Shown piece after piece: positions 23,484 to 42,948 of a stretch of 46,475 nucleotides of DNA (position 1 is the stretch's first letter; each line of letters begins with the position of its first letter). The notes under the pieces were generated by a model. That model ran no database searches, was not told where the DNA came from, and worked only from the letters and a program-made list of their open reading frames with translations. Both the position numbers and the translations under genes were made by a program. Source of the stretch: a candidate division WOR-3 bacterium (lineage in GTDB: Bacteria; Hydrothermota; UBA3072); NCBI GenBank assembly GCA_039804165.1, contig JBDRZZ010000014.1, positions 1-46,475 on the forward strand, read 5' to 3'.

Positions 23484-25573
23484 CTATCTCAAGATTACAA
23501 TTTTACATACTTTTGAATCTGAACCAGCTTTCAATTGACAAAAGTAAGTTCCTCCTGGTAACTCATTGCCATATTTGTCCCTTCCATTCCATAAAACAGA
23601 ATGATTTCCACTGGACTTTATTCCATGTTCAAGGATGATTATTTCTTTACCGGTGAGGTCATAAATTGCAAGTTTAATTAAAGAGTTTCTTGGAAGGCTA
23701 TAGAATATTCTTGTAGTATAATTGAAAGGATTTTGACTGAGATATAAAGTAGTAGTAATATTAATTTTTTTTCTACACTTCCCATCTTTGAGCCCCAGAA
23801 GGGATTGATTTTCCTCTCGGCGAATATATACCAGCTAGTGGCTCCTATATGCAGATCGGCATAATAATACCATTTACCCCAGAATCTTGTTAAACCGGTC
23901 CAGATACTATCGGGATAACAAGCAACTATCCCTTGCTTATTACCAAAAGAAGAAAATTCTTGCCATTTACGTAATTCCTCTATATATGTGTCAGCCTTGT
24001 CTTTCTTGTTTTTCTCAAAGTATGTACAACACATCTGAGCTGTGCCTTCCCACCAGATTCCATCGCAAATATTGCTAAAATGGAATCCTTTATATTCACT
24101 AAGAGAGACGCAACAATTATCTTCTGCCCATAAAAATCCGCAATCATATGGCTCTTCATCTAAAGCAAGTGCACCAAAAGTCTGGGCATCAAGGGGAGAA
24201 AAATCATTAATGTTTAAGCTATCCAAAGTGCCAGACCAAAAATGTTTTGTAGAAGAGTCCCATAAGGATTTCACGAAATTTAACGCTTTTATGGATCTTT
24301 TAAGCCAAATATCGTTACCAGTATGGTGATATAATCTTTTAAAAGCTACATAAACATCAATATTATGTTCTGTAGATTTCCAGTTTTCTTTTGTGGGTTG
24401 TGGTTCCCACCCTATATAGCCCCCAGTATAACCAGGAATTCCTGTAGAATCATAGCAATGTTCATAAATCCAGTTTCCTAAATCTATAGCATTTTGGATG
24501 TATCTATTTTCATTCGTTATTGAATCATAACTTAACCAAGCAATTATAATCCAAGCCATCTCTCCAGTATAAGTTCCAACATCATATGAGTCCTCAAACC
24601 ATTTTGAACTGTCAGAATCCCACCATCCTGGTAATCTTGCCTTTCCAGTTTGATGGTGAATAATATCTCCAGAACTATAGGCATTTCTTAGCCTTCCGTC
24701 CTTATAATATCTATCGTTCTCTTGAGCATATTTAAAAGCATCTCCAATTATTCTAGCCCTTCTTATGTCTTCCTGTGTTCCTCTTACTAAAAATGCAATC
24801 ATTGCCAAAGCATTATCATAAGTGTAAGCCTTATTAGCCATCCTATAGTTTTTTGAAGAGGACATTTCATAACTTTGAAGAAATCGGATTGAATCTTCGC
24901 GAGGTAAATTAAAGGAAATCTCGTCAAGATAAAATGTACAACCATCTGGATTCGGATCTAGTTCTTGATTAAAGACAAAAAAGAATCCTGCACAGATATC
25001 TGAGAGATTCTTCCCAGTTAAATCAATTTCGTATTTACTCCATTTAGGAGATAACTCGAATGTATCTTTAATCTCTTCTGAAGAATCGTTTTTATAACCC
25101 ACACCGCATATTATTTTTAATCCAGATTCAATAGATTTTGCCCAAAAGGATAATTTTGTGGCTCCTTCTAAATTATAACCTTTCCCATTATTTCCCTCCC
25201 AGTTATTCTCTGGTTCTTGCCAAACAATTCCATTCCACTTATATCCATCATTTCCCGCTTGCCCATTCCACTCTATTCTTATACAACTTTTACCGAATGC
25301 TGGGTTTTCTTGACAGTTGAAATTAACATCTATATTTGATGAACCATTATAATAACCCGAGGGATAATAATGATTTCCTCCAGAGTTATAATCTGAATAG
25401 ATGTAAAAAACTTCGTTTTATTGGTCCATCACTTTGTATAAGTATGTATAACCATTATTTTCATTATTTGAATCTCTGTTTCTCGGATTTAAAAAATTGA
25501 AAATTAAAGATATAAATAAAAAATATAAAAAGAAGTTTTTGGATTTTGAATTTAAGTTAATAAATTTACTCAT
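23484..25573 (-). pseudogene. Secreted glycosidase-like protein with C-terminal sorting tail, broken twice
   Basis: The reconstructed protein would be about 696 residues. It starts MSKFINLN (ATG 25573, GGGAGG upstream) with a signal-like hydrophobic segment; an in-frame TAA at 25420-25418 then interrupts it. The frame resumes with FYIYSDYNSGGNHYYPSG, a carbohydrate-binding-like region, an (alpha/alpha)6-barrel glycosidase-like domain rich in Trp and Tyr (HNIDVYVAF, NDIWLKRSI), and then an A8 run at 23772-23765. One extra A there restores the frame into YLSQNPFNYTTRIFYSLPRN...GRDKYGNELPGGTYFC...VILR, a FlgD-like/Por sorting tail ending at TAG 23484. The main piece (25102-23678) lacks this tail. 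Catalytic residues cannot be assigned. Confidence 0.8.
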
Positions 25574-39430: not shown

Positions 39431-39458
39431 AAAATAATCTTATTCAGGGTAAAGTCAA
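39431..39458 (-). promoter_or_regulatory. Promoter of the transglutaminase gene overlapping the clpB stop codon
   Basis: TTGACT (39458-39453) contains the last bases of clpB, including its TGA stop; TATTTT (39436-39431) is 16 bases further on. Expression of this block may thus be partly independent of clpB. Confidence 0.5.
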
Positions 39459-41821
39459 GAGCTTCTGAAGATAAAATTCTTATTTTCTGCATCTATAATA
39501 ACCTTCCCTCCCTTTATCTCTCCATCGATAATTTTAAGAGATAAAGGTGTTTCTATAAATTTTTGGATTACCCTTGCAAGAGGTCTTGCTCCAAAAGTTT
39601 TATCAAAACCTTTTTCTGCCAGCAAATCTTTTGCGGCTTCGGTTATTTCTAATTGAACATTTGATTCTTTTAGTCGCTCTGAAAGGTCTCCTATCATTAT
39701 GTCTGCAATTTTTTTTACATGAGATAAAGTTAAGGGTCTAAAGATTATTATGTCATCAATTCTATTTAAAAATTCAGGACGCATTTTAAGCCTTAACTGT
39801 TCATTAACTTTTTCTTCAAGTAGTTCATAATTATCTGCGAGATTTTGAATTATATCTGAAGCAATATTAGAGGTCATTATATTAACTGTATTTGCAAAAT
39901 TAACTGTTCTCCCTTTTCCATCTGTCAATCGTCCATCGTCTAAGACCTGAAGCAAGATATTGAAAACCTCTGGGTGAGCTTTTTCTATCTCATCGTAAAG
40001 GATCACACTGTATGGTCTTTTCCTAACAGCCTCTGTGAGATATCCTCCTTCTTCGTATCCCACATATCCTGGGGGGGCTCCTATTAGTCTTGCCACAGAG
40101 TGCCTTTCCATAAACTCACTCATATCTACTCTTATAAGAGCATCCTCAGAATCAAAGAGAGTTCTGGCGAGAACTTTTGCTACCTCTGTTTTTCCAACTC
40201 CCGTTGGTCCTAAAAAAATAAAAGAACCTATAGGTTTGTCTGGCTTTGAGATTCCTGACCTTGCTCTCCTTATCGCATCCGCTACAGATTTTATTGCATG
40301 TTCTTGATTAACAATCCTTTTATGCATCTCTGCTTCAAGATTTATCAATTTCTCTTTTTCTTTTTCGAGCATCTTACTCACAGGTATTCCCGTCCACTCA
40401 GAAACTATAAATGCAATATCTTCCTCTGTAATCGGTTTATCTAAAGAATGAGATACTCCCCATTTTTCTTTTTCTCTTTCATATTCCTCTCTTAACTTTG
40501 CTTCTTCTTCAATGATCTTATGAGCGCCCCGATGATCTCCTTCTTCTGCCAACTTCTTTGCTTCCTCTTGTAGATTTTTTATTTTCTCTTCTTTCTTTTT
40601 TAAATCTTCTGGAATGGCAGAACGTTCAAGTTGAAGTTTTGCACAAGCCTCATCGAGTAAATCTATTGCTTTATCAGGTAGATATCTGTCAGTTATATAT
40701 CTTTTTGAAAGCTTAACAGCATACTCAATCGCTGTATCATTTATTTTAACACCATGATATTTTTCATATGAATTTTTTAATCCTCTTAATATTTCTATTG
40801 CATCAGCGATTGAGGGTTCGCTAACCCATACGGGTTGGAATCTTCTCTCAAGAGCAGGATCTTTTTCTATATATTTTCTATATTCTGTAACTGTTGTTGC
40901 TCCTATTGTTCTTATCGCTCCTCTTGCGAGAAAAGGTTTCATCATATTAGAGGCATCCATCGCTCCCTCTGCAGCACCAGCTCCAACAACGGTGTGAATT
41001 TCATCTATAAATAGAATGAGCTCTTCTTTTTTCTTTTCTAATTCATCCAAAATTGCTTTGAGTCTTTCCTCAAACTCTCCTCTGAACTTTGTTCCGGCTA
41101 TAAGTCCGGCAAGATCGAGTTGTAATATTCGCTTATTTTTAAGTAATTCGGGAACTCTTTTTTCTCTTATTCTCTGCGCCAAACCTTCCACTATTGCAGT
41201 TTTTCCTACCCCTGCTTCTCCAATAAGAACAGGATTATTTTTTGTCTTCCTTATTAAAATTTGCATTACCCTTTGGATCTCTCTCTCTCTATTAATTACA
41301 GGGTCTCCTATTTCTTTTGTAATATCCCTAGTGTATCTCTCTAAAATTTTGTATTTGCTTTCCGCATCTCGATCTTCTATTCTTGATTCTCCTCTTACAT
41401 TTTTAAGAGAAGAATAGATTTTCTCTCTCGTTATACCCGAAGAAAGGAGGATTTCTCCTGCCTTCCCTGTGTCATCCGTTAATGCGAGTAATATATGCTC
41501 AGTTCCAATAAATCTGTCATTTAATCTACGAGCTTCTTCCCAAGCATTATCGAGAACCCTATTCGCAGAAGGGGATAGATAAATCTGATGAGTTCCATAT
41601 ACCTTAGGAAGTCTATCAAGAGCATCTAAAACTTTGTTTTTTATTAAATCAGTATTTAGTCCCATATCTTCGATTAAACGAGGAACAATCCCTTCTGGAT
41701 CATCAAGTAATCCATACAAAATGTGAAGGGGAGTCATTTCTGAATGACTAAATTTTGAAAGGGAAGATTGTGCAATAGAAAGAGCTTCCCTTGCTTTCTC
41801 TGTAAATTTGTCTTCTCTCAT
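39455..41821 (-). CDS. clpB: ClpB-like AAA+ chaperone with a short middle domain
   Basis: A 788-residue Clp ATPase. It has an N-terminal Clp-N domain (two repeats, about 3-145), D1 with GEAGVGKTA and ERRFQPVWV, a middle domain and D2 with [13 protein letters not shown] and [21 protein letters not shown]-like blocks. The middle domain between D1 and WTGIPVSKM is only about 60 residues ([20 protein letters not shown]...EKEKWG), half of that in typical ClpB. D2 reads [12 protein letters not shown] with no LGF/IGF loop for ClpP. It therefore looks like a disaggregase rather than a ClpC protease partner. The start is the ATG at 41821 with AGGAGGA upstream, preferred to the TTG one codon earlier. 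Confidence 0.88.
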
Positions 41822-41849
41822 CAATCCTCCTAAAAATAGTTTTAGATAA

Positions 41850-42039: not shown

Positions 42040-42948
42040 TTATAGCCCGAATTGCTTTGTGTCAACCCATTCCATTGAGAGAAGAGACCAAAAATCTAAG
42101 GCCAGTTTATTAAGGACATACTCATAAGGTAACCATCCATATCCCTTATCTCCCCAACTTGAACCCCAAGAATTACGAATTAATAAGGCTCCTTTTGTCT
42201 CTTTCTTACACTTGAGATTTTTAATCTTCATATTATCGTCGTAACCTACTGCAATAACAGCATGACCCCATTCGGCTTTTTCTCCCGGACAAGGATAGGG
42301 AATTCCACCTTTGACATTGGAATCACTGAATGATGGAAATCCATAGAATCCAAACATTGATGGAATGCCTGCAGCAAGGTATTTCTTCACACTGCTAAGC
42401 ACTTTACTAGGAGAAATGTTCATACCTAAAGGGTCGTGACAGAAATATCTAATCGCTTCGTAGTTCTCAGCTATAGCATACACAAAAGCAGAGGGCTCTT
42501 TATCAAAATCGCTTATGACATAAGGCCAGTACTTTTCCGCAGGAACACCACACAGAACTAAAGCCCCCATCACATTTCTTAGCCAGGCACCAGTATCTCC
42601 AGTCACACCCATTAGATTACGAGTGGTCTTGTATAAAAACAACCGAGAGCCATCAATATATTTACCAAAAGCTCTATTCTCAAAGTATTCTACTATCCCT
42701 ATACCGGCGTGTGCTGTGCACGAACCCAAATCACCTTGATCTTCAACTTTAGAGCACCAAGGTCTTAAATCAACTTTTGATGGAAGTGGTTTTGATTTTT
42801 CTTGAGATATGCCCAATTTCTTTGTCATTTCGGCAATTTCGGGGTGTTCTTCTGTATAGTCACGTAAATCTGGGAGTGGGGGTAGCCATCCTGTTCCCAC
42901 TATTTCTCCTCTTTCTGGGATTATTACCTTTTTATACATAGGATACAT
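42040..42948 (-). CDS. Papain-like (C1A) cysteine protease without signal peptide
   Basis: A 302-residue protein with a complete papain-type active site: Gln71 (oxyanion hole) and Cys77 in EDQGDLGSCTAHAG, His229 in WGHAVIAVGYDD, and Asn259 in IRNSWGSSWGDKGYGWLPYEYV (N-S-W-G motif). The N-terminal 60 residues (MYPMYKKVIIPERGEIVGTG...) may form a propeptide-like extension; no signal peptide or membrane helix is visible, so it may be cytoplasmic, or secreted by another route. Start ATG at 42948 has AAAGGAGG upstream. It has its own promoter and stands alone. C1A proteases are uncommon in bacteria. Confidence 0.9.
   Translation of the reverse strand: MYPMYKKVIIPERGEIVGTGWLPPLPDLRDYTEEHPEIAEMTKKLGISQEKSKPLPSKVDLRPWCSKVEDQGDLGSCTAHAGIGIVEYFENRAFGKYIDGSRLFLYKTTRNLMGVTGDTGAWLRNVMGALVLCGVPAEKYWPYVISDFDKEPSAFVYAIAENYEAIRYFCHDPLGMNISPSKVLSSVKKYLAAGIPSMFGFYGFPSFSDSNVKGGIPYPCPGEKAEWGHAVIAVGYDDNMKIKNLKCKKETKGALLIRNSWGSSWGDKGYGWLPYEYVLNKLALDFWSLLSMEWVDTKQFGL

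Follow-up and report, generated by a model that had tools for sequence, protein, structure and literature searches.

The window, the whole 46,475-nucleotide stretch of DNA that was analysed, carries on its minus strand a gene in three pieces, which we refer to as the head, the body and the tail (Table 1). The ATG at 25573, which lies downstream of a GGGAGG (25584-25579) that we assigned by eye as the ribosome site, opens a hydrophobic N-terminus that is signal-like as judged by eye. After 51 codons, this frame reaches an in-frame TAA, which interrupts a motif that is read without a stop in all five aligned relatives. The body frame is then open from 25417 to the A8 run at 23772-23765 in the poorly conserved body-tail linker. 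Past the run, the body frame adds ~28 unrelated residues and its stop ends at 23678, while the tail piece (99 residues) lies in the minus-one frame relative to the body, and its frame ends at 23484. Because of the TAA and the frame break, the tail and the signal peptide are not on one reading frame in the window gene. The longest downstream open reading frame (ORF) in the frame that follows the TAA starts with a GTG at 25102 and contains neither the head nor the signal. The GC content of the body by codon position is 39, 40 and 28%, compared with 45, 33 and 24% in 39 genes picked in the window. The locations of the TAA, the A8 run and the two ends given in the original prediction were exact on the minus strand.

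Table 1 Features of the interrupted gene
Feature	Coordinates	Strand	Evidence
Head piece: start codon, hydrophobic signal-like N-terminus and start of the conserved motif	25421..25573	-	blastp to L006 (E 0.003) and L003 (E 0.004)
In-frame TAA at codon 52, within the motif that is stop-free in relatives	25418..25420	-	Alignment of five relatives
Body: predicted N-terminal beta-sandwich (~residues 1-180) and (alpha/alpha)6 barrel, glycosidase/epimerase-like	23767..25417	-	Relatives at 31-59%; AlphaFold2; fold matches
A8 run between body and tail, site of the frame break	23765..23772	-	Sequence
FlgD-Ig/Por-type C-terminal sorting tail, in a frame other than that of the body	23484..23764	-	Profile matches; blastp to L006 (E 4e-18) and L002 (E 3e-11)

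Intact relatives and patchy distribution

A scan of genome contigs found 14 loci that encode relatives, with a body identity of 31-59%. Three tail-bearing relatives are single uninterrupted frames, namely L006 (59% identity over the body; its record is titled Zixibacteria SM23_81), L002 (51%; the same gene as locus L017 of genome G021) and G136/L101 (44%). In L006 and L002, the head, body and tail are in one frame, and G136/L101 is likewise a single frame, of 728 residues, with a tail at its end as judged by eye. In blastp, the three pieces of the window gene match the single-ORF protein L006 in order (E 0.003 over 22 residues for the head, E 0.0 for the body and E 4e-18 for the tail); the head match is weak alone, but it is correctly placed. 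This collinearity with the intact relatives bears out the earlier proposal that the pieces derive from a single secreted protein, which ended in a FlgD/Por-type tail and was broken twice. The relatives share the domain order of the window gene, but theirs are unbroken, and the longest run in L006 and L002, the two for which runs were listed, is six, an A6 lying near the junction in L002. None of the three is split into separate genes, an outcome that the original prediction had asked orthologues to decide, and we ruled out separate genes on this basis. A change of the genetic code was also ruled out since TAA serves as a normal stop in the window, where 20 of the 39 genes picked from the ORF list end with it. 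The window gene thus carries disabling lesions where its relatives are intact, as in a pseudogene. Three further relatives (L003, L004 and L009) have the body without the tail, and the ends of L003 and L009 look dockerin-like by eye.

Among 147 genomes of the phylum, four match the gene at 1e-10, including its own genome and G045, which matches in the beta-sandwich only. No match to the gene was found in the five other genomes of the same family, including G001 of the same genus. The six era-operon genes on the same contig align with a same-genus genome over nearly their whole length, and both G001 and G003 retain era and the genes that follow it. On the gene's side of era, comparison over 8-9 kb gave a single weak match (22%) in G003 and none in G001. 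By these comparisons, the gene is accessory and patchily distributed, and it is probably dispensable.

Sorting tail and predicted body

The tail piece scores 31.8 bits both on TIGR04183 of NCBIfam (cut-off 23) and on FlgD_ig of Pfam (cut-off 27), and its 23.7 bits on the Pfam model Por_Secre_tail are below the cut-off of 27. At the level of profiles, the tail is not a chance match. The genome contains 54 TIGR04183 matches at E 0.01 or better, 50 of which are marked above the cut-off. The search for the core type IX machinery covered SprA and PorU and found an SprA-like frame, which is only just above its cut-off (205.1 bits, summed with its frame neighbours, versus 200), and a PorU-like protein (463.1 bits versus 420). 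With 54 tails and the SprA- and PorU-like proteins in one genome, the natural reading of the gene is that it encodes a type IX secretion cargo. It resembles a cargo with a type A (TIGR04183) tail in its signal-like head, again by eye, its tail above the cut-off and the SprA/PorU-like genes, but differs in that its head, body and tail are not one frame. In type IX secretion, proteins are exported by Sec, pass through SprA and are processed by PorU. We infer the same export route for the whole protein, which would leave through Sec by its signal peptide, cross the outer membrane through the SprA channel and be processed by PorU, like the other tail proteins of this genome. A literature search found no paper joining "WOR-3" with "type IX secretion".

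Detached tails are rare and not a habit of the lineage, as only four of the 54 tails in this genome are on frames of <160 residues (the window gene, C5:98810 at a contig end, C15:1446 and the stop-bearing remnant C4:75816), and in G001, G003 and G005 this is the case for 4/95 tail matches, three of these lying no more than 100 bases from the start of a contig. The remnant at C4:75816-76031 (L060:3817-4032) is a more decayed tail with an internal stop and no body, flanked by a short gene on one side and a convergent gene on the other, and indicates that tail genes decay in this genome. Another secreted-protein gene may be split at C23:10656-10883 (L063:3657-3884 and upstream), where a tail frame of 242 residues is closely preceded by a signal-like stretch in another frame.

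The AlphaFold2 model of the body, built from ten sequences, has a mean pLDDT of 78.4 and a pTM of 0.82, with residues 490-520 below 50, and places a beta-sandwich ahead of an (alpha/alpha)6 barrel. The fold matches of the barrel are dextran dextrinase, a methylmannose polysaccharide hydrolase, bacterial glucoamylase and cellobiose 2-epimerases (Z 29.4 to ~26, 8-14% identity). VIA on the predicted model gave 9ju0_CCC (Z 29.4, rmsd 2.9, 315 aligned) and 7qsj_A (Z 27.8, rmsd 2.7, 287 aligned), while the top row of Foldseek is the GH76 protein 6u4z (E 1.5e-11). The predicted model thus has the (alpha/alpha)6-barrel glycosidase/epimerase fold, an assignment of fold only, to which several families are close. 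A sequence search of solved structures returned short, weak matches to cellobiose 2-epimerases (best E 4e-05). No NCBIfam family and no Pfam family above its cut-off was found for the body, and we rejected membership in GH127 (PF07944), which scores 18.3-19.2 bits over a short stretch, below the gathering cut-off of 24.9. The model indicates a fold rather than a substrate, and the body probably acts on a carbohydrate. Glycosidase-like proteins of this kind seem to form a family, in which some members have type IX tails. The beta-sandwich part (query residues ~2-183) is also matched without the barrel in L011-L015 and at C2:257803-258285 of G045, and the N-terminal beta-sandwich may therefore be a mobile module of its own.

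Homopolymer runs and recoding

The window contains 18 A/T runs of at least 8, of which 15 are within genes that stay open and 14 of these are 107 nt or more from either end of the gene. The openness of these genes is partly by construction, as the 39 window genes are picks from the ORF list and the era operon is the sole set checked against a relative. Elsewhere in the genome, eight tail-bearing genes hold an A8 or T8 inside the frame that reaches the tail. In the 51 other tail frames with at least 100 nt of upstream frame, the 100 nt next to the tail match contain no run of at least 8, and the nearest case is an A7 at -82 in C6:79789. Six frames in this survey reach the edge of the stretch read, two of these six at contig ends. 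With up to three mismatches allowed, a search for the 30 bases around the A8 run finds no second copy in the genome.

The original prediction suggested that RNA polymerase may slip at the A8 run, so that a fraction of the products is tailed and the rest tailless. The position of the run in the body-tail linker is in line with this, and there are precedents. Slippage on homopolymers restores the frames of Blochmannia and Buchnera genes (PMC3017870), and a run of eight A in a human gene gives about a tenth of full-length product (PMC1088944). The Blochmannia and Buchnera genes, in which such rescue is thought or shown to occur, are described as having an AT-rich genome, a poly-A frame break and no accelerated evolution (PMC3017870), all as in the window gene, but the latter also has a nonsense codon and is accessory. 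The relatives and the rest of the genome do not support the proposal: the three tail-bearing relatives read into the tail in frame with no break, the other tails lack a nearby run, and the TAA at codon 52 would end translation upstream of the A8. In addition, selection against runs is evident from a length of nine in a large share of genomes, with variation among bacteria (PMC1088944), and eight-base runs are common in the open genes here. We consider slippage at the A8 run very unlikely. A literature search found no paper joining at least four of the five terms phase variation, homopolymer, secreted, metagenome-assembled genome and Stahlbacteria.

Heptamers of the A_AAA_AAA type are slippery, and the A8 run contains one in the right phase of the body frame, with the tail in the minus-one frame and a GGGA shortly upstream. 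Minus-one ribosomal frameshifting is nonetheless scarcely credible since the 77 nt from the last two A of the run fold at -0.2 kcal/mol (z +1.16; 187 of 200 shuffles are at least as stable), and the tails of the relatives are in frame with the TAA of the window gene lying upstream. A programmed site would be shared with the three tail-bearing relatives and followed by a stimulatory structure, and neither was found. We give equally little credence to a surface enzyme with anchored and free forms, in which slippage at the junction, together with some bypass of the early stop, attaches the tail in a fraction of the molecules.

Rate of evolution and fate of the gene

With L002 as the outgroup, changes specific to the window gene and to L006 are equal in number (51/51, chi2 0.0), and with G136, L009 and L003 as outgroups they are 50/45, 46/45 and 54/43 (chi2 at most 1.25). 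The body violates 3 of 53 columns that are invariant in nine other sequences, which is within the range of 0 to 11 violated by each of the nine when left out in turn. As far as these counts reach, the body does not evolve faster than that of L006, its nearest relative, which is only 59% identical and so resolves constraint after inactivation coarsely. The equal change counts and the few violations suggest that the body was constrained until recently or is still constrained. These counts are also compatible with a gene that is still functional and with a consensus error.

An error in the consensus or a mixture of strains would mean that the gene is alive, or intact in part of the population. 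The genome is a draft assembly of 49 contigs that is probably derived from a metagenome, and the expectation of the GeneTack authors is that unclustered frameshifts with BLASTp validation are sequencing errors and not genuine indels (PMC3711429). The body without acceleration and the selected openness of the other window genes also leave room for an error or a mixture. On the other hand, two lesions of different kinds, one of them an isolated stop, would have to coincide in one gene, and the 8-base runs in open window genes and unbroken tail genes argue that miscounting of homopolymers is not general here. We therefore regard an error or a mixture as rather improbable, though it keeps more than marginal weight.

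The intact relatives, the two lesions of different kinds in one gene, the accessory distribution and the signs of recency lead us to the simplest reading and one that we think quite probable, in which the locus is a young pseudogene, a recently inactivated and patchily distributed gene for a type IX secretion cargo. The nonsense codon would truncate the product after 51 residues, and the frame break at the A run would separate the tail from the body. We infer the loss of function from this, as we do the order and age of the two lesions and the substrate of the enzyme; the lesions are perhaps still polymorphic in the population. The case also calls for caution, in that recoding is a tempting explanation when a homopolymer lies between two domains, but the intact relatives, the second lesion and the ordinary homopolymers in open genes point to simple gene loss.

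Two other genes of the window were noted. A ClpB-like protein of 789 residues, encoded at 39455-41824 (minus strand), matches ClpB models in two stretches and below the ClpB cut-off, the middle of the profile being apparently absent. At 42040-42948 (minus strand) lies a gene for a protein of 302 residues which, with no NCBIfam family, matches the papain-family (C1) proteases at 48.4 bits versus 20.7.
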